Of a DNA stretch of 64,000 nucleotides, positions 29,974 to 40,476 are shown in pieces. Made by a program: the position numbers and the translations under genes. The notes under the pieces are model-generated. The model was not told where the DNA came from. It made no database searches and saw only the letters and a program-made list of their open reading frames with translations. Source of the stretch: Chitinophagales bacterium. GTDB taxonomy: Bacteria > Bacteroidota > Bacteroidia > Chitinophagales > Chitinophagaceae. Numbering within the stretch: position 1 is the first letter of the stretch; each line of letters opens with the position of its first letter. Location of the stretch: contig JAJPKJ010000020.1 of the NCBI GenBank assembly GCA_021323755.1, positions 1-64,000 on the forward strand, given 5' to 3'.

Positions 29974-30043
29974 GTTGAATGGCTTACCGGGTTTTTGCAA
30001 TTCAACCCATTCTTACTAAAAGAACAACTATAAATTTAAAATA

Positions 30044-30637
30044 ATGTCAGAAGAAAAACCATTAACGCAGGAAGAAAGCCTCGCATTAATAACCAGTATG
30101 ATCAGCAAAGCAAAATGTGATTATGAAGAAACAGGAATAAGCGCTTTGATGTGGGGAAGCATTGTTTGCTTTTGCAGCATTATTTCTTTTGCCGGTTTCT
30201 ACCAGCATTGGGTCTGGGCAAACTACGTTTGGTTCCTGACCATTGTTGCGGTGATCCCCCAGATCATTATTGCCATTCGCGAGAGCAAAAGAAGAAAATT
30301 CAAATCCCATAATGATGATGCCATGAGCGGCATCTGGATAAGTTTTGGCGTTGGCATTTTTTTAATGTCTTATTTCGTCAATCTCTTTAAAGTTGAACAC
30401 GAGGGCTCTCTCTATATTATTTTTTATGGCATCCCCACTTTTGCAACAGGTTTAGCAAGAAATTTTAAACCCATGATCATTGGCGGAATCATTTGCTGGG
30501 CAATCGCCATCGTCAGTTTTTATATTTCATTTCCCGACATCATGCTCTTAACCGCACTGGCTGCCATTATTGCTTGGTTTATTCCCGGGTTGATTTTGAG
30601 AAGAAGATATCAGAAACTAAAGAATGAAAATGTTTAA
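30044..30637 (+). CDS. multi-spanning membrane protein of unknown function
   Basis: 197 residues: an N-terminal acidic cytoplasmic helix (SEEKPLTQEESLALITSMISKAK), then about six hydrophobic helices, then a basic tail RRRYQKLKNENV. No catalytic motif is visible. Its last 14 bases overlap the start of the winged-helix regulator, implying translational coupling and a functional pairing, possibly as a membrane sensor or transporter controlled by that regulator (inference). Confidence 0.75.
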   Translation: MSEEKPLTQEESLALITSMISKAKCDYEETGISALMWGSIVCFCSIISFAGFYQHWVWANYVWFLTIVAVIPQIIIAIRESKRRKFKSHNDDAMSGIWISFGVGIFLMSYFVNLFKVEHEGSLYIIFYGIPTFATGLARNFKPMIIGGIICWAIAIVSFYISFPDIMLLTALAAIIAWFIPGLILRRRYQKLKNENV

Positions 30638-30920
30638 AGATCTTGACCCCATATTGCATTCCCAGCTACGCCTTGCCGTTATGAGTTTGCTCATTAGCGT
30701 GAAAGAAGCGGAGTTCACGTTCATCAAAGAAAAGACAAACGCCAGTGCTGGCAATATCAGCGTGCAGATAAATAAATTGAAAGATGCCGGCTATATCAAT
30801 GTGCTAAAACAATTCAAGGATAATTATCCGCAAACCATTTGTAAAATCACTCCACTGGGAATAAAAGCTTTTGAAGAATATGTAAAGAATCTGCAAACCT
30901 ATTTAAGCATAAAAAAATAA
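30624..30920 (+). CDS. small winged-helix transcriptional regulator (MarR/ArsR-like)
   Basis: 98 residues forming a single winged-helix DNA-binding domain: LHSQLRLAVMSLLISVKEAEF, recognition helix region TNASAGNISVQINKLKDAGYI, wing PQTICKITPLGIKAFEEY. It matches the HTH_34-type stand-alone winged helix without an effector domain. The start overlaps the preceding membrane protein gene by 14 bases (ATG at 30624; a second ATG is two codons later). Likely to autoregulate its operon. Confidence 0.85.
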   Translation: MKMFKDLDPILHSQLRLAVMSLLISVKEAEFTFIKEKTNASAGNISVQINKLKDAGYINVLKQFKDNYPQTICKITPLGIKAFEEYVKNLQTYLSIKK

Positions 30921-30945
30921 AACCTCTTTCCTTTGCAGAAAGAGG
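30911..30945 (-). terminator. intrinsic terminator of the T9SS-type gene
   Basis: Perfect stem CCTCTTTC / GAAAGAGG with a 7-base loop (30923-30945). On the minus strand it runs into TTTTATTTTTTT (30911-30922). It lies 38 bases past the stop at 30983. Confidence 0.78.
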
Positions 30946-30982
30946 CTTAGGGTTTAGCTACCTCTGATTAAAACCGAACTGC

Positions 30983-31708
30983 TTAGCTCTTTATCAATTG
31001 TAAATTCATTCTTTCATTACTGTTCACAATAATCTCAAGCATGTAGGTTCCTGCCTGCAATTTGCTTGTTCCGGCAAGGGCAAATTTATTGTCGCCGGTT
31101 TCCGCCCCTGTGGACTTTCTCATGACCTCATTACCATTCTTATCCGTCACTTTTATCACTACATAAGAACTTTGTTTTAGCTGCACGTTTACTTCAATAT
31201 CATTAACAGAAGGATCGGGCGTAACACTGATCGCTTCTACACTTTTGCTGTTGTAGGATCTGAGAATAAGTACTTTTGAATAAACTGCTTTGCTATCTGC
31301 ATCTGTTTGCCTAAGGCGGTAATACAAATCATTCTTTTTCGCAACCGAGGCTTTGAAATTATCTTCAAAACTATAATCGTTTGATGAATTTGCTGTTCTT
31401 GTTGCTTCGCCGACTTTTTCAAAATTTGTTCCGTCAATACTTCTTTCAATATCAAAATGGCTTACATAATTAACAGCATTAATATTCCAATGCAGGTTAA
31501 CGGAATTACGAAAATAGGTAGCGTTAAAACTTACCAACTTTTCAGTCAAAATCGTTTTTGCAGAAAGACTTTTATTGTTTACAACAGTATCAATCGCGTT
31601 CCGCCCAGCGATCACTGTTTTGTGAATGGGTAATGGGTTAGCAAAAATTGCAAATGAGGTTAATAAAAATGTAGGTAATAACAGGATGCGTTTTACTTGT
31701 TGTTCCAT
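30983..31708 (-). CDS. secreted protein with type IX secretion-like C-terminal sorting domain
   Basis: 241 residues. An N-terminal signal peptide (RILLLPTFLLTSFAIFA) precedes a fibronectin-like segment common in Bacteroidota surface proteins (NSVNLHWNINAVNYVSHFDIERSIDGTNF is interrupted by no catalytic motif). A C-terminal domain of about 75 residues follows, ending LQAGTYMLEIIVNS...MNLQLIKS, as in T9SS type A sorting signals. It is unusually small: little remains besides the fibronectin-like part and the sorting domain. Probably surface-anchored; role unknown. Confidence 0.78.
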   Translation of the reverse strand: MEQQVKRILLLPTFLLTSFAIFANPLPIHKTVIAGRNAIDTVVNNKSLSAKTILTEKLVSFNATYFRNSVNLHWNINAVNYVSHFDIERSIDGTNFEKVGEATRTANSSNDYSFEDNFKASVAKKNDLYYRLRQTDADSKAVYSKVLILRSYNSKSVEAISVTPDPSVNDIEVNVQLKQSSYVVIKVTDKNGNEVMRKSTGAETGDNKFALAGTSKLQAGTYMLEIIVNSNERMNLQLIKS

Positions 31709-32027
31709 CGTTGTAAAATTTCAGAAGTTAATAATAAAATTTCCATTGTACGGGAACGCAACAACATGGTAAATTCAAAGGATGGATACTAATGAATTAA
31801 TTTTGTGTTTTAAGGTAGCGATGAAATGCTTTAAGCATTACGTAAACAGATACTGCAAACCGTCAGGCAGTGCGTTTACAACATTTGGGTTTTTTTGGGA
31901 ATTGGGGGTAGAAAAGGGACGTTTACTACCAGTTAGAATTATCAGGGATGAGTAAAGATAACCATCCACCTTAATCTTTGCAACTGTTTTGCCAAAAAAG
32001 TTTTAATTCTCATTAATGTTCTGACAA
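31709..32027. other. 319-base intergenic region with a hairpin, no gene seen
   Basis: Between the starts of the T9SS-type gene and the end of pdxA. It holds the palindrome ATGCTTTAAGCAT (about 31828-31840) and an inverted repeat at 31842-31879, GTAAAC..ACTGC / GCAGT..GTTTAC with a 10-base loop. On the plus strand a run of seven T residues follows about 10 bases later. No ORF of note, no exact TAnnTTTG on the minus strand. It could hold a small RNA or regulatory site. Confidence 0.4.
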
Positions 32028-33122
32028 TCATTCCTCTGTTTCTTCCAGGCTCTCATCTTCAACATTGGCCAATACTGTTGCCGTCATCTTTTTGAGTGGA
32101 TTCTTATTATTTTCAGCATATTCAATTCTGTTCTCGATAATATCAATGCAGGCATAGATCGCAGCAATAAAAGACGAAGTATCAGCCTTGTTTTTTCCCG
32201 CAATGTCAAAAGCCGTTCCATGATCAGGAGATGTTCGTACTGCGGGTAAACCTGCAGTGTAATTCACGCCCTCGCCAATGGCAAATGATTTGAATGGAAT
32301 CAGCCCCTGGTCGTGGTACATTGCCAAAACAGCATCAAATTTCTTATATTGACTACGCGCAAAAAAAGCGTCCGCGCTATAAGGGCCAAACACAAGCATG
32401 CTTCGTTTTGCATCTTTAATGGCTGGCTTAATGATCTCTTCTTCTTCCTTGCCGATTAATCCTTCATCGCCCGCATGCGGATTCAATCCAAGCACGGCGA
32501 TCTTTGGTTTCTCAATTCCAAAATCTTTTTGAAGACTTTCTTTCAGGATATTCAGCTTTGATAAAATTCCTTCGCGCGTAATCTGAGAGGCAATTTCCTT
32601 TACCGGAATGTGTTCAGTAACCAATCCCACCTTCATGTTTTCAGCGGTCATTAACATTAATACATCATTTACCCCAAAACTCTGTTTTAAAAACGGGGTA
32701 TGACCGGTAAAATTGAATTGCGCTGATTGAATGTTCTTTTTATGAACAGGCGCAGTAACCAATCCTTGAATTTTATTTTGTTTCAGCGCTTCCACTGCGG
32801 CCGATAATGATTTAACCGCATAAATGCCACCTGCCTCGGTCAATTGCCCCGGAGTTATGGCAATTTCTTCTTCCCAGCAATTAAATATGTTAACCTGTTT
32901 ATGACTGATCCGATTGAACTCCTTTGTGCTCTGATAATTGAAATTGATTTCGGGTATTGATTTCCGGTAGAAATTAATGATTTTGTTGGACGCAAAAATC
33001 ACAGGCGTGCATAATTCCAGCAACCGATGATCAGAAAAAGTCTTTATTACCAGTTCCGTTCCAATGCCATTAATGTCGCCAATTGAAATTCCGATCAGCG
33101 GTCGTTGTTGTTGAGAATTCAT
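32028..33122 (-). CDS. pdxA: 4-hydroxythreonine-4-phosphate dehydrogenase
   Basis: 364 residues from the ATG at 33122; an upstream in-frame start would add 10 non-conserved residues. It performs NAD-dependent oxidation in the DXP-dependent route to pyridoxal phosphate. Family signatures: GISIGDINGIGTELVIKTF, VTAPVHKKNIQ, FTGHTPFLKQ (metal-binding His), MYHDQGLIPFK and VRTSPDHGTAFDIAGK. The C-terminus is a little longer than average and acidic (EDESLEETEE). Divergent from ksgA; pdxA-ksgA adjacency is common in bacteria. Confidence 0.96.
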   Translation of the reverse strand: MNSQQQRPLIGISIGDINGIGTELVIKTFSDHRLLELCTPVIFASNKIINFYRKSIPEINFNYQSTKEFNRISHKQVNIFNCWEEEIAITPGQLTEAGGIYAVKSLSAAVEALKQNKIQGLVTAPVHKKNIQSAQFNFTGHTPFLKQSFGVNDVLMLMTAENMKVGLVTEHIPVKEIASQITREGILSKLNILKESLQKDFGIEKPKIAVLGLNPHAGDEGLIGKEEEEIIKPAIKDAKRSMLVFGPYSADAFFARSQYKKFDAVLAMYHDQGLIPFKSFAIGEGVNYTAGLPAVRTSPDHGTAFDIAGKNKADTSSFIAAIYACIDIIENRIEYAENNKNPLKKMTATVLANVEDESLEETEE

Positions 33123-33211
33123 GCTTGATATTTTCGAACGATAAAAATACAATTAATTTGGTTGCCAGCTGCCAGGTCCTGATAAGCGGCAGGCAAGAAC
33201 GATTAAAGATT

Positions 33212-33219
33212 TACTTTTG
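33212..33219 (+). promoter_or_regulatory. -7 promoter element immediately before ksgA
   Basis: TACTTTTG, exact TAnnTTTG match, only 9 bases before the ATG at 33229. If used, the mRNA would be leaderless or nearly so. Confidence 0.48.
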
Positions 33220-33228
33220 TATGAGTCT

Positions 33229-33981
33229 ATGTACACACTAAAAAAATCGCTGGGTCAGCATTTTTTGCGCGATGAAAACATCAGCAAAAAAATTGTGGCA
33301 ACACTTCAACAACAAAAATTCGATCAATTGGTTGAAGTTGGCCCCGGTGCAGGCGCATTAACAAAATATCTCTTACCAATTGAAAATATCGATTTTAAGG
33401 CAATCGAAATTGACGATGAAAAAGTGAATTTCTTATTGAAGACATTTCCTTCATTGCAGGATAAAATAATTGCCGGCAGTATCCTGGATATTGAAAAACC
33501 ATTCACGGGAAAATTTACCGTGGTGGGTAATTTCCCGTATAATATATCCACCCAAATTGTTTTTAGGATACTGGATTGGAAAGATGATGTTGAGTGTATG
33601 ATCGGCATGTTCCAAAAAGAAGTTGCCCAACGCATTGCTGCAAAACATGGCAATAAGATCTATGGAGTGACCAGTGTACTGGTACAGGCCTTTTTTGAGG
33701 TTGACTATTTATTTGAAGTGCATGAACAATCCTTTGATCCGCCCCCAAAAGTAAAAAGCGCCGTTGTACGATTCAGACCCAGGGCTCAACGCAAAACATT
33801 GAAGAGTGAAAAAGATTTTTTTATTTTGGTGAAGACCGCTTTTAACCAGCGAAGAAAAACATTACGCAATGCCGTAAAGAATTTATTTGAAGAGAAGGTC
33901 CTGCAAGAAGAAATTTTTAATAAACGCGCCGAACAATTATCCGTGGATGATTTTGCAGCACTAACGTTTAAGATGAAATGA
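33229..33981 (+). CDS. rsmA: 16S rRNA dimethyladenosine transferase
   Basis: 250 residues (also called KsgA) from the ATG at 33229; a TTG 12 bases upstream overlaps the predicted promoter. It dimethylates A1518 and A1519 of 16S rRNA during 30S maturation. Motifs: [20 protein letters not shown]-binding [14 protein letters not shown], catalytic [13 protein letters not shown] (the NxPY-type motif is NFPY), and [16 protein letters not shown]. Its last four bases overlap the start of the dehydrogenase gene (ATGA). Confidence 0.97.
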
Positions 33982-34916
33982 TAAGATCTATGATAAAGAA
34001 AGTTATTATTACCGCCAAGGTTCATGAATACTTAAAAGAACGGTTATCAAAACAAGGTTATGAGATCATTCATTTACCGCAGATCAGTTATGAAGATCTG
34101 CAAGAACAAATTGCAGACGCAGAGGGATTGGTTGTTACCACCCGCCTAAAAATTGATAAGAACATCATGGCCAAAACGTCAAAACTTAAGTGGATCGGAC
34201 GTTTGGGAAGCGGCATGGAATTGATTGATGTGGCTTACGCAGAGACCAAAGGAATCAAATGCGTAAGCAGTCCTGAAGGAAATCGCAATGCTGTTGGCGA
34301 GCACGTGCTCGGCATGTTACTGAACCTGATGAATAAAATATCTTCATCACAAAAGGAGATCCGTGAAGGAAAATGGATTCGTGATGCCAATCGCGGAACT
34401 GAACTCACCGACAAAACCGTCGGCATTATTGGTTTTGGAAATACTGGCAGCGCATTTGCAAAACTGTTATCATCGTTCAACGCGACAATTCTTGCTTATG
34501 ACAAATATCAATTCGGATTTGCAAAAGGAAATATCCATGAAGCAAATAGGGAGCAGATAGAACGATATGCTGATGTCATCAGTTTGCACGTTCCCCTGAC
34601 CGATGAGACATTCCATCTTGCCAATGACGCCTTTTTCGATTCTTTGCAAAAGAAGCCATACTTTATCAATGCATCTCGAGGCAAGGTACACGATACACAA
34701 GCTGTTATTAAGGCTTTACAGACCGGAAAGATTTCCGGGGCGGCTTTGGACGTTCTGGAAAATGAAAAATTAGACACTTATTCCAGCGATGAAAAAAAGC
34801 AATTGGATTGGATGGTAAACCAACCCAATGTTATCGTAACACCACATATCGCGGGTTATAGCAATGAGGCATTTTACAAGATGGCAAAAGTGTTATTGGA
34901 CAAACTGGGACTTTAA
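33978..34916 (+). CDS. D-isomer-specific 2-hydroxyacid dehydrogenase
   Basis: 312 residues. An N-terminal catalytic lid precedes the NAD-binding Rossmann motif [16 protein letters not shown] near residue 150; the C-terminal catalytic region has [14 protein letters not shown] (Arg near 233), a Glu in [10 protein letters not shown] and the catalytic His in [11 protein letters not shown] near 285. It could be a 3-phosphoglycerate, glyoxylate or lactate-type dehydrogenase; the lack of an ACT domain rules out the long SerA form. The start overlaps rsmA by 4 bases (or uses the ATG four codons later), so the genes are translationally coupled. Confidence 0.92.
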
Positions 34917-35013
34917 TCGATAATAAGCGGATATAATAATCCGAAAACCTTTTCCTGCCTCGTTTTCAGCCCGCTGAACCAGGATTTTACCATTAAAAAG
35001 ACCGTTAAATTCA

Positions 35014-35043
35014 TTTGGCTTTTCAAAAAAAAAATTATCTTTG
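35014..35043 (+). promoter_or_regulatory. consensus promoter of greA
   Basis: TTTG at 35014-35017, 18-base A-rich spacer, TATCTTTG at 35036-35043, an exact TAnnTTTG match. The expected start of transcription is near 35049, only a few bases before the leader hairpin. Confidence 0.68.
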
Positions 35044-35056
35044 TACATATAAATAG

Positions 35057-35102
35057 TGCAACGCTTCAGCAAAACTGAGGCGTTGTATTTTTTTTCTTTT
35101 TT
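35057..35102 (+). terminator. terminator/attenuator hairpin in the greA leader
   Basis: Stem 35057-35069 / 35075-35087 (13 pairs, two G-U, no mismatch) with the 5-base loop CAAAA; the core is CAACGCTTCAG / CTGAGGCGTTG. It is followed by eight T, one C and six T (35088-35102). It sits between the greA promoter and the greA ATG, so most initiations could end as an RNA of about 50 bases. It could also stop read-through from the upstream dehydrogenase gene. Confidence 0.82.
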
Positions 35103-35111
35103 ACAAACGAA

Positions 35112-35117
35112 AGGAGG
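35112..35117 (+). promoter_or_regulatory. Shine-Dalgarno sequence of greA (unusual here)
   Basis: AGGAGG, part of AAGGAGGG, four bases before the ATG at 35122. None of the other start regions I inspected in this window has such a sequence. It fixes the greA start. Confidence 0.8.
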
Positions 35118-35121
35118 GATT

Positions 35122-35595
35122 ATGAGTGGCATAACCTATTTGACAAAGGATGCGTACGAACATTTAAAAGCAGAATTACAAAAGCTCAAAACCGTTGATC
35201 GCCCGGCCGCATCGCGAGCAATTGCAGAAGCGCGCGAAAAAGGTGATCTGCGCGAGAACGCAGAATATGATGCTGCCAAAGAAACCCAAGGGCTTTTGGA
35301 AGCAAAGATTCAAAAGTTTGAAAGCGACATGGCAAACGTTCGCATCATCGACGAAGAAAATATCGATACAAGCAAGGTATCCATATTAACAAAAGTGACT
35401 GTTACCAATTTGAATTTAAAAAGACAGGTCACCTATCATTTGGTCTCTGAAAAGGAAGCTGATTTAAAATCCGGAAAAATTTCGGTAACCTCACCCATCG
35501 GAAAAGGCTTATTGGGTAAGAAGATCGGCGAAACCGCCGAAGTAACGGCTCCCGCCGGAGTAATAAAATTCAAGATCGAAAACATCACAGTTTAA
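35122..35595 (+). CDS. greA: transcription elongation factor GreA
   Basis: 157 residues, standard GreA length, from the ATG preceded by AGGAGG. The N-terminal coiled coil carries the acidic tip AREKGDLRENAEYDAAKE (residues 34-51), with the Asp/Glu pair that stimulates transcript cleavage by backtracked RNA polymerase. The C-terminal FKBP-like domain ends with SPIGKGLLGKKIGETAEVTAP. It acts in the RNA polymerase secondary channel. The leader contains a terminator hairpin, so expression is probably controlled after initiation; autoregulation by GreA is an inference. Convergent with rpiA. Confidence 0.97.
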   Translation: MSGITYLTKDAYEHLKAELQKLKTVDRPAASRAIAEAREKGDLRENAEYDAAKETQGLLEAKIQKFESDMANVRIIDEENIDTSKVSILTKVTVTNLNLKRQVTYHLVSEKEADLKSGKISVTSPIGKGLLGKKIGETAEVTAPAGVIKFKIENITV

Positions 35596-35619
35596 ATAGC
35601 TTGGAATAAGCCAGGCTAT
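35596..35619. terminator. hairpin between convergent greA and rpiA
   Basis: ATAGCTTGG / CCAGGCTAT with a 6-base loop, one G-U pair, filling the 25-base gap. There is no T-run on either side, so termination strength is doubtful. Confidence 0.4.
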
Positions 35620-35620
35620 A

Positions 35621-36310
35621 TCATTTGAATTTTATCTCTTCAACCCTTCCATCTCCATAAGCAATGATGGCTTTTGTGGTCATGTTGATGAACAATCCAG
35701 TTTCAACAACTCCGGGAATAAGATGCAAATTTTCATTGAGCAAAAACGCGTCCTCAATTTTTTCGCAATAGCAATCAAGAATATAATGCTGATGATCGGT
35801 AATAAAAATTTTACCCTCTTTTTCCCGCAATTTTATCTCTTTACAAACACCTGATTGCAGTATTTTTTTCCAAACCTGTTTGTATCCAAAAGAGATCACT
35901 TCAACCGGCAAAGGAAATTTACCCAGTTGCTTCACCAGTTTTGTGTAATCTGCGATAATGATCAGCTCCTTTGAGGCACTGGCAACAATTTTTTCCTGCA
36001 ATAAGGCGCCGCCGCCGCCCTTGATCAATTGTCCTTTGGGGTCAATTTCATCGGCGCCGTCAATGGTTAACGATAATTGGTCAACTTTATCTAAGTCACT
36101 GACCGTTATGCCTGCCTCTTTTGCCAGTTGTGCTGATTGTGCCGAGGTGGGCACAACGGTAATATTCAACCCTTGTTTCGTTCGTTCGCCCAATTCCTGT
36201 ATCAGCCAATAAACTGTGCTCCCTGTTCCCAAACCAATTGTTGCTCCTTGCTTTACAAAATCAGCGGCATTTGCACCAGCCCTTTTTTTTATTTCTTCGC
36301 TAGATAACAT
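35621..36310 (-). CDS. rpiA: ribose-5-phosphate isomerase A
   Basis: 229 residues. It interconverts ribose-5-phosphate and ribulose-5-phosphate in the pentose phosphate pathway. Signatures: IGLGTGSTVYWLIQEL near residue 25 (phosphate site), LTIDGADEIDPKGQLIKGGGGALLQEKIVA (seen across residues 82-112, catalytic Asp and Glu), ADYTKLVKQLGKFPLPVEV, and the C-terminal GVVETGLFINM. The gene lies 9 bases downstream of the frameshifted cbpM on the same strand, so it may share that transcript. Confidence 0.97.
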   Translation of the reverse strand: MLSSEEIKKRAGANAADFVKQGATIGLGTGSTVYWLIQELGERTKQGLNITVVPTSAQSAQLAKEAGITVSDLDKVDQLSLTIDGADEIDPKGQLIKGGGGALLQEKIVASASKELIIIADYTKLVKQLGKFPLPVEVISFGYKQVWKKILQSGVCKEIKLREKEGKIFITDHQHYILDCYCEKIEDAFLLNENLHLIPGVVETGLFINMTTKAIIAYGDGRVEEIKFK

Positions 36311-36319
36311 TTACAATTT

Positions 36320-36630
36320 TTATTTAAGATCATTTTCAAAATGTTCATAAAAAACCAACCGGTTCTTTAACTGAAGAATTTCTTGTTGCAGATGCTCCAT
36401 CCTTTGTAACAGGTGTGAAACCACATCAAGATTTTGAGCGTCTATCTCAAGCTCCTGGTGCAAGCGGATGAGTTTTTCCAATTGGCCCAACTGTTCAAAA
36501 GGCAAATATGTTTTTTGCTCAACAATGGTGGTTTCGATCAACCCATTCTCTCAAGCAATTGAATAAATTGAATATCCAAATGATGATAACTGCAAAATTC
36601 TGTGACTGAAATGAGGCTTTCATTTTCCAT
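36320..36630 (-). pseudogene. cbpM: cbpM-like chaperone modulator, frameshifted
   Basis: CbpM regulates the DnaJ-like protein CbpA. An ATG at 36630 opens a 30-residue frame, MENESLISVTEFCSYHHLDI and on to LLERMG, ending in TGA at 36540-36538. The protein continues in another frame from 36541 as LIETTIVEQKTYLPFEQLGQ through the helical LEIDAQNLDVVSHLLQRMEH region. Restoring one T (GGTTG to GGTTTG) would give about 103 residues, the normal family length. It follows the equally frameshifted cbpA by 9 bases. It could be a true pseudogene, a sequence error, or two coupled frames (TTG overlaps the TGA). No canonical slippery heptamer is present. Confidence 0.75.
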
Positions 36631-36639
36631 AAAATATTT

Positions 36640-37529
36640 TTACATCGTTGACAATTTTTTGAACAGTTCCTTTTGTTCGTTAGTAAGATTTGTTGGTAAT
36701 TTAATATTCCACTTAATATACAAATCACCAAACTCGCCCTCTTTTTTATATACCGGAAACCCTTTTGTCTTAAGTCGGATACTGCTACCATTCTGTATTT
36801 CAGGTTTCACCGTTATTTTCACAGTACCGTTTATGGTATCGATTGTCTTTTCTCCGCCAAGCAAAGCGGTATATAGGTCAATATCTTCATTAATATAAAT
36901 ATCGTTCCCTTTTCGGTGATATCTTTTGTCATCGGGGATTATAAATGTAATGTACAGATCACCGTTAGGTCCACCATTAATGCCAGCAGAGCCATATCCG
37001 CTCAATTTTATTTTTTGTCCATTTTCCACACCGGCAGGAATGGTAATGCGCACATTTTTTCCGTCAACAGTCAGCGTTTGCTTATGTGTAGTGTAAGCAT
37101 CTTTTAAATGAAGATGCAATTCCGCATTATAATCATTACCCCGAAATTTTGTTTGCCGGCCTCCACTGCCTTCGGCATGCTGACCAAACATTGCAGAGAA
37201 GAAATCAGAAAAATCCGTGTCATTAAAATTGCCGGAAAAATTATAGCCGCTGTCGCCTTGCGTTTGCTGATGCCGTTGTTGCTTTGCTTGTTCGAACTGT
37301 TCTGCATGCTGCCAGTCTTTCCCGTATTGATCGTATTTTTTTCTTTTTTCAGGATCGCTCAATACTTCATTTGCCTCGTTTATTTGTTGAAATTTTTTAT
37401 TGGCTTCTTTATCATTTGGATTAAGGTCGGGATGATGTTTGCGCGCAAGTTTGCGGTATGCTTTCTGATCTCCTCTTCAGACGCATTTTTGTTTATTCCC
37501 AATATTTTGTAGTAGTCAATAAATTCCAT
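36640..37529 (-). pseudogene. cbpA: cbpA-like DnaJ-class co-chaperone, frameshifted in the J domain
   Basis: The ATG at 37529 opens [20 protein letters not shown], a J-domain start. After EEIRK (near 37461-37464) the frame is lost; the next frame reads [20 protein letters not shown] with the essential HPD, and continues through [17 protein letters not shown], a linker and the two DnaJ C-terminal substrate-binding domains ([10 protein letters not shown]...[19 protein letters not shown]). There is no Cys-rich zinc domain, as in CbpA. Restoring one A (AGAAAGCA to AGAAAAGCA) repairs the gene to about 297 residues. Without it, a J-less fragment of up to 240 residues could still be made from an internal start. 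Confidence 0.8.
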
Positions 37530-37577
37530 GAATCAGCTATTGTTATGCCTAAGACATCAATATCTTACGCGATTTTG

Positions 37578-37640
37578 CACGAATTACGCGAATTTAGAGA
37601 AGAGCTTTGTATTTATTCGTGTAATTGGCTGAAATTCGTG
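37578..37640. repeat. degenerate AATTCGTG repeats in a divergent intergenic region
   Basis: CACGAATT at 37578-37585 (followed by ACGCGAATTT), ATTCGTG at 37615-37621 and AAATTCGTG at 37632-37640: copies in both orientations between the cbpA start and the HIT gene. May be an operator set or a genome-wide intergenic repeat. Confidence 0.4.
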
Positions 37641-37673
37641 TTTTATTTTTTTATCCTTTTAATTATTGCGATC

Positions 37674-38066
37674 ATGACCATTTTTTCAAAAATAATCGCC
37701 GGTGAAATTCCAGCTTATAAAATCGCAGAAGATGAAAATTTTTTTGCGTTCCTGGATATTTTTCCGCTTCGGGAAGGACATACATTAATAGTTCCAAAAA
37801 CGGAAACAGATAAATTTTTTGACTTGCCTGATGATTATTTGAGCAAATTATTACTGTTCGCAAAACCGATAGCCCATGCCATAGAAAAATCATTTCCCTG
37901 CAATCGCTGCGGATTATCTGTTGTTGGATTGGAGGTTCCGCATGCCCATCTGCATTTGATTCCCATTGACAGCGCAGATGATCTGAATTTTACGCGAGGG
38001 AAAATAAAAGTAAGCCCGGAGCAGTTAAGAACTGCGCAGGAAAGAATCATTACAAATCTGAAATAG
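37674..38066 (+). CDS. HIT family nucleotide hydrolase/transferase
   Basis: 130 residues from the ATG at 37674; the upstream in-frame extension crosses the intergenic repeats. N-terminal IFSKIIAGEIPAYKIAEDE is typical of HINT-type proteins, and the histidine triad is HAHLHLIP near residue 99. HIT proteins hydrolyse AMP-lysine or dinucleoside polyphosphates, usually as cytoplasmic dimers; the physiological substrate is not predictable. In many Bacteroidota this gene follows greA; here rpiA and cbpMA separate them. Confidence 0.93.
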   Translation: MTIFSKIIAGEIPAYKIAEDENFFAFLDIFPLREGHTLIVPKTETDKFFDLPDDYLSKLLLFAKPIAHAIEKSFPCNRCGLSVVGLEVPHAHLHLIPIDSADDLNFTRGKIKVSPEQLRTAQERIITNLK

Positions 38067-38087
38067 TTTCAAATCCTTCTTATTCAC

Positions 38088-38657
38088 TTATCTCTTGCGG
38101 TTCACCCTGGCCGGATTTTTTTTAATAAAATCCTCCCAGCCATTTATTTTTTTTGCGGGCGAATTACCCAATCCATTATTTTGAAAGTGATGACATACTG
38201 CGACTGCAAGCGCGTCAGAAGCATCGTAATGTTTTATTTCCTTTTTAAAAAGCAGGATATGCTGCAGCATTTTCCAAACCTGTTCTTTATCAGCGTTGCC
38301 ATTTCCCGTAATGGATTGCTTTATTTTTCTTGGAGAATATTCGGTCACGGTTAAACCCGCCTGTATGGCTGAAGCGATCGCTACCCCCTGCGCCCGACCA
38401 AGCTTTAGCATACTCTGCACATTTTTGCCAAAGAATGGAGCTTCGATAGCAAAATCCTGGGGCTGAAATTCTTCGATCAGCTCTTTTACTTTTTTATGAA
38501 TGAGATGCAATTTCTCATGCGGATCTTTTTTGGAGGCCAACTTCAGCACGCCCATTTCCAGCAACATTGGTTTTCCGTTTTGTATTTCGATAATGCTGAA
38601 ACCCATCATCAATGTGCCTGGATCTATGCCTAAAATTATTTTGGAATGCTTTTGCAA
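38088..38657 (-). CDS. ruvC: crossover junction endodeoxyribonuclease RuvC
   Basis: About 189 residues from a TTG at 38657, the nearest start before the conserved IILGIDPGT; no ATG is available and the ORF could extend to 38714. It resolves Holliday junctions with RuvAB. Catalytic acidic residues are visible as Asp in GIDPG, Glu in AIEAPFF, and the Asp pair in HYDASDALAVAVCHH. The basic C-terminus (NPARVNRKR) fits DNA binding. Divergent from the flippase-like gene with only about 22 bases between the chosen starts. Confidence 0.93.
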   Translation of the reverse strand: MQKHSKIILGIDPGTLMMGFSIIEIQNGKPMLLEMGVLKLASKKDPHEKLHLIHKKVKELIEEFQPQDFAIEAPFFGKNVQSMLKLGRAQGVAIASAIQAGLTVTEYSPRKIKQSITGNGNADKEQVWKMLQHILLFKKEIKHYDASDALAVAVCHHFQNNGLGNSPAKKINGWEDFIKKNPARVNRKR

Positions 38658-38666
38658 CAGGAGATT

Positions 38667-38674
38667 TATTTTTG
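38667..38674 (+). promoter_or_regulatory. -7 element before the flippase-like gene
   Basis: TATTTTTG, exact TAnnTTTG, with TTTTG at 38639-38643 (23-base gap). It lies five bases before the GTG at 38680, so a transcript would be leaderless. Confidence 0.35.
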
Positions 38675-38679
38675 ATGCG

Positions 38680-39681
38680 GTGATCGTAAACAAAAATATC
38701 AAATTAATAGTCAACTATTTGCTCGGACCAATAGTATTCCTGCTATTAATCTATTCTATTTATCACCAAATTGTAAGGCAACACAACTGGCAACAATCCC
38801 TGCAACAAATAAGATCAGCCATTGCAGGCGCCGCTCAATGGAAAATAGGACTTGTTTTTCTATTCATGTTTTTTAATTGGGGATTAGAAGCCAGAAAATG
38901 GCAATTGGTCATTCGCTCGGTGCAGCGAATCAATTTTACCAGGGCTTTCAAAGCAACGTTAACCGGCATTACGATGGCTTCTTTTACTCCAAACCGCACC
39001 GGCGATTATTTTGGACGAATGTTGTATATAGAAGAAGGCAAACGCGCCCAATCAGTTTCACTGACCATAATGTGCAGTTTTGCGCAACTAATAATAACAT
39101 TGATAACCGGATGCGCGGGCATTATCTATCTAAAATGGTATTTGCATGCGCATCAGCCTGCAGAACAAAATATTTTTCATTTCTGGCTGAATATACTGCT
39201 CACAGGCACAGCGCTGATGCTGGTGATTTTTTTATTTGTTTTTTTCAAACTGTCGTGGTTGGTCAAATTGCTTAAAAACAACCGGTTTGCAGGAAAATTA
39301 TTTTCCTATCTAAAAGTTTTAGAAGATTTTAACGCAACCTTCCTGCTACATATTTTGTCTTTATCGTTACTTAGGTATATTGTTTTTGTGATTCAATATT
39401 ATCTGATGTTTTCCGTTTTTGGATTATCATTGTCCTTAGTGGAAACATTTGCTGGCATGAGTGTAGTATTTTTGGTGATAACGATCGTACCTACTTTCAC
39501 TTTTCTAACGGAGCTGGGTGTACGATGGGAAGCAAGCATTCAGATCATGGAATTGTTTGGCGTAGGTACAGTTGGCATATTTGCGGCGAGTTTCGGAATT
39601 TGGTTTATTAATTTAATAATTCCTGCATTGATTGGCAGTTTATTAATTTTAGGCATTAAACTTTTTAGAATCAAACCATAG
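38680..39681 (+). CDS. lysylphosphatidylglycerol synthase-like membrane protein (UPF0104/flippase type)
   Basis: 333 residues if the GTG at 38680 is the start; this removes an overlap with ruvC and begins just before the first helix (LLGPIVFLLLIYSIYHQI). About eight membrane helices are visible, with the family motif TPNRTGDYFGRMLYI near residue 110 and the AFKATLTGITMASF segment before it. Related to the flippase half of MprF and to AglD-type proteins, without any aminoacyl-transfer domain. Presumed role: moving or scrambling a lipid or lipid-linked compound in the inner membrane. The next gene starts at the base after its stop. Confidence 0.85.
   Translation: MIVNKNIKLIVNYLLGPIVFLLLIYSIYHQIVRQHNWQQSLQQIRSAIAGAAQWKIGLVFLFMFFNWGLEARKWQLVIRSVQRINFTRAFKATLTGITMASFTPNRTGDYFGRMLYIEEGKRAQSVSLTIMCSFAQLIITLITGCAGIIYLKWYLHAHQPAEQNIFHFWLNILLTGTALMLVIFLFVFFKLSWLVKLLKNNRFAGKLFSYLKVLEDFNATFLLHILSLSLLRYIVFVIQYYLMFSVFGLSLSLVETFAGMSVVFLVITIVPTFTFLTELGVRWEASIQIMELFGVGTVGIFAASFGIWFINLIIPALIGSLLILGIKLFRIKP
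38691..38698 (-). promoter_or_regulatory. -7 element before ruvC
   Basis: Minus strand TATTTTTG, exact match, 33 bases before the ruvC TTG. It lies within the start of the divergent gene; no good -33 seen. Confidence 0.33.
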
Positions 39682-40476
39682 ATGAAAATATTTACAACAG
39701 CGTTTATTCTATTGTCATCTGTTTTGTCGCTCCCGCTGCGCATCGAGGAAGATCCGTGCATTACGCACAATTATGCTTTTCTGGCAGGCGAATCCATTAC
39801 CTATAAAGTTTACTACAAATTGGCCGGAGTCTATGTTGGTGCGGGTGAAGCCGTTTTTACATCCGCCCTCGATCAAATAAATGGCAAACCGGTTTATCAT
39901 GTTGTTGGCGATGGGAAAACCTACAGTTTCTATGACAATTTTTTTAAGGTAAGAGACAAGTATGAATCTTATATTGACACCCTTTCTTTGCAGCCATATA
40001 AATTTATCCGCAACGTAAATGAAGGAGGCCATAAAACTTACGAAAACGTAACGTTTAACAAAATCACCAATACGGCACTCACCAATCAGGGCGTTTTTAA
40101 AGTTCCCCAATGTGTGCAGGATGTGATGAGCTCCATGTATTATGCGCGCAATGTAGATTTCAGCCATTTGAAACCCGGAGACAAGATCCCTTTTTCCATG
40201 TTTCTCGATAATGAAGTCCATGAACTATACATCCGTTATTTGGGAAAGGAAACCGTAAAAACAAAATATGGAAAATTCAGGGCGATAAAATTCAAACCAT
40301 TATTGCTCAAAGGCACCATATTCGAAGGTGGCGAGAAGATGACGGTTTGGGTTAGTGATGATGCCAATCATATCCCGGTTCGTGTAGAAAGCCCCATAGC
40401 CGTGGGAAGCGTTATTGTTGATATGATTGATTTCCGCAATCGTCGTCATCCGCTAAGTTCATTGACGGATTTATGA
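39682..40476 (+). CDS. DUF3108 domain protein, exported
   Basis: 264 residues. Signal peptide MKIFTTAFILLSSVLSLPLR; the mature part opens with LAGESITYKVYYKLAGVYVGAGEA, the DUF3108 signature, and includes VQDVMSSMYYARNVDF and a C-terminal MTVWVSDDANHIPVRVESPIAVG. The fold resembles lipid-binding periplasmic proteins of the LolA/LolB type (inference). Its start abuts the stop of the flippase-like gene, so the two are very likely one operon acting on an envelope lipid. Confidence 0.87.
   Translation: MKIFTTAFILLSSVLSLPLRIEEDPCITHNYAFLAGESITYKVYYKLAGVYVGAGEAVFTSALDQINGKPVYHVVGDGKTYSFYDNFFKVRDKYESYIDTLSLQPYKFIRNVNEGGHKTYENVTFNKITNTALTNQGVFKVPQCVQDVMSSMYYARNVDFSHLKPGDKIPFSMFLDNEVHELYIRYLGKETVKTKYGKFRAIKFKPLLLKGTIFEGGEKMTVWVSDDANHIPVRVESPIAVGSVIVDMIDFRNRRHPLSSLTDL

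Follow-up and report, generated by a model that had tools for sequence, protein, structure and literature searches.

In the window, by which the whole analysed stretch of 64,000 nucleotides is meant, the greA gene is preceded by a promoter that is followed almost at once by a terminator hairpin, which raises the question of what an intrinsic terminator does between a promoter and its gene. The answer that emerges from comparison of greA leaders is that transcription of greA is probably held back just after it begins. Direct reading of the sequence found promoter, hairpin, T tract, AGGAGG and greA just where the initial annotation had placed them. The promoter comprises a -33 element TTTG (35014–35017, + strand) and, 18 bases further on, a -7 element TATCTTTG of the form TAnnTTTG (35036–35043, + strand). 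It fits the Bacteroidota consensus of TTTG at -33 and TAnnTTTG at -7, as described in the text of PMC7366714. Judged from the -7 element, transcription is expected to start at 35048–35050 (+ strand), about 8 nt before the stem. The terminator hairpin (35057–35087, + strand), which is defined by direct reading, fold, covariation and a covariance model, has 13 pairs, two of them G-U, and is composed of the 5' arm TGCAACGCTTCAG (35057–35069), the loop CAAAA (35070–35074) and the 3' arm CTGAGGCGTTGTA (35075–35087). It runs directly into a T8-C-T6 tract (35088–35102, + strand; T8 at 35088–35095, then C and T6). Further downstream lies the Shine-Dalgarno (SD) sequence AGGAGG (35112–35117, + strand), six bases with purines around them, separated by the four nucleotides GATT from the ATG at 35122.

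The greA gene itself (35122–35595, + strand), whose product frees RNA polymerase from stalling, encodes 157 amino acids and matches TIGR01462 with 169.7 bits at a cut-off of 139. Upstream on the same strand lies a gene for a D-2-hydroxyacid dehydrogenase of the phosphoglycerate type (33978–34916), whose top NCBIfam match, TIGR01327, reaches 220 bits and stays under its cut-off of 454. The convergent downstream neighbour is rpiA (35621–36310, - strand; TIGR00021, 267.7 bits), given here as context only. The greA reading frame is open upstream through the hairpin (35056–35121) as far as a GTG at 35056, so that automatic annotation may place the start of greA too early.

The stem of the window has a predicted energy of -19.3 kcal/mol (z -7.4), a value as good as which was found in 0 of 200 shuffles. 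In a scan of positions 30000–40000 the hairpin stood first in the list of 19 terminator-like sites, which upholds, for this part of the window, the earlier claim that it is as good a terminator as any there. For comparison with the organism's own genome a sample of 422 kb was used, made up of the window and of up to 20 kb from the start of each of contigs 1–20. It contains 204 leaders of genes with at least 120 codons and free upstream DNA. Of these, 26 carry a terminator-like hairpin (dG ≤ -8) no more than 150 nt from the gene, and the order promoter motif, hairpin, gene occurs in a single one, that of greA. The arrangement in the greA leader of the window is well above chance. A covariance model of the hairpin returned the greA leader as its best own-genome match (E 5.7e-9), followed by the opposite strand of the same hairpin (E 0.12) and by two further sites at E 1.06; of 3717 first-look candidates, 150 were scored. 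In each of 19 out of 19 genomes of the genus the model gave one match at E ≤ 0.01, located at greA, with 150 first-look candidates scored per genome.

The comparative set comprises 266 distinct greA leaders. The genus contributed 30, other genera of the family 68 and other families of the order 20; a further 79 belong to named records collected through similarity of the protein, and the widest group, spread over the GTDB phylum, has 69. Two rows and no others were removed, L032 because it duplicates L020 exactly and L001 because it is a copy of L002; duplicates were defined as exact copies of the last 120 nt, and some species may be present both in the named set and among the other genomes. 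Starts of greA were set by the nearest ATG, those of control genes by the first ATG of open reading frames of at least 120 amino acids. With related, non-independent loci counted individually, 248 of the 266 have a terminator hairpin (dG ≤ -8) no more than 150 nt away from greA, compared with 22/266 when the same test was applied to dinucleotide-shuffled leaders. The hairpin is present in 30/30 leaders of the genus, 68/68 of the family, 17/20 of the order, 68/79 named records and 65/69 of the widest group. Eighteen loci miss the threshold, eleven with a weaker hairpin (-3.5 to -7.8) and seven without any (L058, L072, L164, L185, L196, L197 and L209). Leaders of neighbouring genes with free upstream DNA at the same loci served as controls, and 78 of 354 carry a hairpin with a T tract; a hairpin alone is therefore not rare, and it is its constancy and position that are. 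The complete order of promoter, hairpin and gene separates the two sets far more sharply, with 161/266 greA leaders versus 2/354 control leaders. These counts support the proposal that a greA leader terminator comparable to that of the E. coli GraL RNAs exists in the Bacteroidota, and its conservation reaches further than the initial annotation had supposed.

By group, the full order was observed in 22/30 (genus), 56/68 (family), 10/20 (order), 57/79 (named) and 16/69 (widest) leaders. In view of the last figure, the promoter side is established mainly nearer to the lineage of the window, and the low count in the widest group may reflect other promoter sequences there. Among the 255 greA leaders with a hairpin of dG ≤ -6, 175 have the promoter motif TANNTT[TC]G in the 60 nt that precede the hairpin, compared with 3–9% in shuffles, at a median distance of 6 to 9.5 nt from the stem depending on the group. 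The distance from the end of the hairpin to the ATG has a group median of 30–35.5 nt.

Distant greA leaders possess recurring stems of their own, each followed by a T-rich tract (..AAAGTC[AG]GC.. and GATCGCCGCAGCC.., in L176–L179 and in L140, L141, L143 and L144 of the widest group). Leaders of the kind described here are also carried by Flavobacterium species (for example L064 and L099), so that attenuation should be testable in that genus. Outside the Bacteroidota, 3/10 plasmid- or chromid-borne greA genes have a terminator hairpin no further than 200 nt away, as does the single Bacteroidota record of that sample; this sample, 11 of 30 hits picked by eye with five start codons guessed and several records that may be misfiled chromosomes, says little. 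The greA leader hairpin is old within the Bacteroidota, a partial answer to the earlier suggestion of a convergent or ancient device; outside the phylum the small sample gives a patchy picture.

Covariation of the stem, named in the initial annotation as a check, was found in all three alignments that were built. Alignment A1 (family) comprises 81 of the 98 hairpins of genus and family. A2 (order) holds 27 sequences, namely 16 of the 17 order hairpins, 5 named and 6 from family or genus, with L217 and L052 left out. A3 (Flavobacteriales) holds 25 of 27 hand-picked hairpins, with L054 and L057 left out and some long-loop hairpins never listed. In A1, 93.7% of the cells pair and 64 cells are double-changed as against 17.4 after shuffling; the count of pairs showing any double change, five, does not exceed the shuffles, of which 419 of 500 reached five. 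In A2 double changes occur in 13/13 pairs, a result matched by 0/500 shuffles. In A3 96.5% of the cells pair, 4/8 pairs show double changes (3/500 shuffles), and covariation amounts to 0.293 versus 0.209. With rows that were picked by eye for alignability, which favours clean covariation in A1–A3, the alignments indicate that the stems of greA leaders covary and that the structure is under selection.

Within the family the stem sequence is conserved on both arms beyond the needs of pairing and the loop is variable; between families the stem sequence differs. The hexamer GCGTTG is found in the 3' arm of 95/98 genus and family hairpins, whereas in hairpins downstream of greA at the same loci, a mixed and partly spurious set that provides a rough yardstick, the commonest 6-mer reaches 5/54. 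In L024, L247 and L268 the hairpin that was counted lacks a CGTTG arm, and the conserved hairpin of L024 is situated further upstream. The longer motif GCGTTGT[AC]TTTTTTT is present within 250 nt in 30/30 leaders of the genus. Eight of these 30 (L006, L009, L010, L012, L018, L021, L024 and L026) have more than 40 nt between the conserved T tract and the ATG, most of them with palindromic sequence there and with hairpin and SD intact on either side; in L024 the ATG follows 165 nt after the end of the T tract.

The most obvious alternative is that the hairpin is a mere 3' terminator of the upstream dehydrogenase gene and that greA is transcribed from another promoter. This is compatible with the genus, where a dehydrogenase lies upstream of greA in 30/30 loci and on the same strand in the 29 with a callable neighbour; since it is present in all 30, the genus alone could not decide the matter. 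Moreover, at co-directional loci a median of 60 nt separates the upstream stop codon from the start of the hairpin, as would fit a 3' terminator. Against this reading, 160 loci have a hairpin (dG ≤ -8) and no dehydrogenase match within 600 nt upstream; in 155 of them there is no match in any of the upstream DNA, which in 4 of these spans under 500 nt. Likewise, 57 loci have a hairpin (dG ≤ -8) beside a divergent neighbour. The hairpin is therefore not simply the terminator of the dehydrogenase, which answers the refuting condition set in the initial annotation; a plain 3' terminator would be expected only together with that co-directional gene, contrary to both counts. The position of the promoter motif also speaks against it: it lies upstream of the hairpin, with just 5 of 255 leaders showing it between hairpin and ATG, and the span from hairpin to ATG is too short for a promoter plus leader. 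On these grounds a role confined to ending the dehydrogenase transcript is very improbable.

The preferred reading is that the hairpin represents a start-site-proximal intrinsic terminator in the greA leader, acting as a GraL-like attenuator, to which, on sequence evidence, we assign a probability of about 0.78. RNA polymerase would start at about 35049 and form the hairpin almost immediately, and at the U tract it would either release an RNA of about 40–55 nt or read through into greA; over the leaders as a whole, the released RNA would measure about 30–55 nt. With a start assumed about 5–6 nt past the -7 element, the predicted terminated RNA has a median length of 42 nt (5–95%: 31–54, n=168). 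The start site, termination in the cell and the efficiency of termination are what we infer here. Of the 163 leaders with the motif, 116 have no more than 5 nt ahead of the stem, and a stem so few nucleotides past the predicted start leaves no room for an aptamer, a leader peptide or an upstream antiterminator. Any control would have to be exerted on the polymerase or on the terminator. Owing to the analogy with E. coli GraL, the most likely sensor would be GreA, which by acting on polymerase that has paused or backtracked would alter the ratio between stop and read-through as a feedback; taken by itself, this step is tentative, its odds lying somewhat below even.

Several other forms of leader control were considered and rejected. 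A leader-peptide attenuator would have no room for a short open reading frame if the predicted start is right. A riboswitch, T-box or other Rfam leader finds no family at gathering score: between 34700 and 35700 there are 5 matches up to E 1, none near gathering, the top one with 26.7 bits versus 65. An alternative antiterminator structure was dismissed as its duplex is close to that of shuffled sequence; when the 5' arm is paired with downstream RNA, four of five groups differ from shuffled sequence by no more than 0.4 kcal/mol, the genus shows a small advantage (-7.75 vs -6.82 shuffled), and the pairing is stronger than the terminator in 3/248 leaders. Masking of AGGAGG by the U tract in the read-through mRNA is likewise not significant (fold -8.4 kcal/mol, z -0.68).

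Two narrower versions of the attenuator are included in the probability given above and overlap with it. According to one, the leader is constitutive, a terminator of fixed efficiency that merely lowers greA expression and senses nothing. The near absence of competing pairing and the little or no space upstream of the stem are what such a leader would look like; however, a weak promoter would presumably achieve the same more cheaply, and a stem so fixed within a lineage (GCGTTG in nearly all family hairpins) suggests more than a fixed stop, so that this version appears rather unlikely. The other holds that the main product is a short trans-acting small RNA and that attenuation of greA is secondary. 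It could draw on the conservation of both stem arms beyond pairing needs and on E. coli GraL, which according to the text of PMC6829880 also acts in trans, but the RNA would consist almost entirely of the hairpin, leaving few bases unpaired, its loop is variable, and its stem differs from family to family. As the principal function, a trans-acting RNA is considerably less probable than the constitutive leader.

The closest known system is the greA leader of E. coli, for which the text of PMC6829880 reports that the terminator stops about two thirds of transcripts, that the GraL RNAs from promoter P1 measure 49–59 nt, and that GreA raises termination in vivo, not in vitro. Both leaders carry an intrinsic terminator with a U-rich tail, the RNA predicted here is of a size similar to that reported for GraL, and the detector used in this work finds the GraL hairpin (-18.6 kcal/mol). 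However, the sequences are unrelated, and the geometry differs: 19 nt precede the GraL hairpin, whereas the Bacteroidota stem lies a few nucleotides past the predicted start, and the GraL hairpin ends 102 nt before the ATG, compared with about 30–35 nt in Bacteroidota. A sigma-E promoter is a feature of E. coli greA.

In the text of PMC2965389, Naville and Gautheret (2010) described 5' terminators as over-represented before greA, where they form the seventh-ranked family, and proposed them to be attenuators. Their greA- and rnk-leaders come from Proteobacteria, bacilli and Clostridia, which bears on the question of convergence or ancestry, and each has an antiterminator, unlike the Bacteroidota greA leaders, in which none better than chance was found. 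The main text of that article contains no word starting with 'Bacteroid' or 'Flavobacteri'. Nor is greA named in the text of the Flavobacterium psychrophilum paper PMC9723704 or of the B. thetaiotaomicron papers PMC10994844 and PMC7366714. PMC9723704 lists 64 structured 5' regions, among which the greA leader may be found; in the texts of this literature we found no report of a Bacteroidota greA leader, and supplementary tables may list one. As far as the text of PMC2965389 goes, greA leaders are already known as a kind of attenuator, and what is new is their breadth in the Bacteroidota and the start-site adjacency without an antiterminator. If the proposed reading is true, attenuation of greA is widespread across this phylum with its different promoter type, and is no enterobacterial or Firmicute detail. 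The layout with the hairpin at the start would then constitute a minimal system in which a polymerase factor controls a terminator without an RNA switch; how this is done is a question that GraL, as described in the text of PMC6829880, leaves open.

The AGGAGG before greA follows a pattern of its own. It is present in 26/30 leaders of the genus, 20/68 of the family, 0/20 of the order, 3/79 named records (L036, L044 and L056) and 1/69 of the widest group, versus 0/76, 0/133, 0/24, 0/198 and 2/112 control genes at the same loci in the same order of groups. Conservation across Chitinophagales, which the initial annotation had proposed to check, is hence found in the genus and in part of the family, and not in the other families of the order. 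A five-base SD adds 9/69 greA leaders in the widest group (L169, L173–L175, L180, L186, L187, L189 and L196) as against 1/112 controls there, and thus a weaker SD at greA may be common in distant lineages. On a tree of 118 Chitinophagales GreA proteins the trait, defined as an SD of five or six bases and present in 48 rows, changes 12 times, compared with 37.5 times with shuffled labels, and 10 of the 12 changes are forced by well supported branches. On this tree, whose bootstrap had not settled, a well supported branch sets apart 82 rows that include every carrier. By these distributions AGGAGG is a genuine trait, specific to greA and found mostly in one clade of the Chitinophagaceae, and it was gained and lost separately from the hairpin. 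The view of hairpin and AGGAGG as one conserved device, put forward in the initial annotation, was accordingly abandoned: the hairpin is phylum-wide and the AGGAGG clade-bound. With its SD, greA joins the few SD-bearing genes of bacteria that are poor in such sequences.

A likeness exists to the rpsU leader described in PMC9976891, where a strong SD is likewise found on a single gene in an SD-poor phylum; rpsU, however, is a ribosomal protein gene with 9–13 bp of pairing, and greA is absent from the main text of that article. The likeness invites the explanation that the AGGAGG of the clade ties greA translation to ribosomes with a freed anti-Shine-Dalgarno, lacking bS21 or bS18/bS6, and hence to ribosome assembly. 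The enrichment in genus and family over the controls without a single AGGAGG is in its favour, as are the bS21-less ribosomes of F. johnsoniae, which according to the text of PMC9976891 prefer strong SDs. On the other hand, the mechanism as given there needs extended pairing, below -13 kcal/mol for rpsU, for which six bases are short. The rpsU gene of the organism's own genome (L323) shows only AAAGGAT, although in other members of the phylum an extended SD is frequent at rpsU (text of PMC9976891), and a search of this assembly with two exact patterns did not find the 16S 3' end. A link to ribosome assembly appears improbable. A still bolder combination would be a phylum-wide, start-adjacent terminator directly gauging the activity of GreA on the polymerase, together with a trans-acting RNA of fixed stem and a clade-specific SD reading ribosome assembly; it would imply no alternative RNA fold, an abundant short hairpin RNA and a stem fixed per family, and is, taken as a whole, slightly more doubtful again.

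In the own-genome sample AGGAGG precedes 2 of 292 genes, greA and rplI, the gene for L9 (L270:18996–19439; PF01281, PF03948). The gene upstream of rplI is presumably rpsR, judged by its end sequence.
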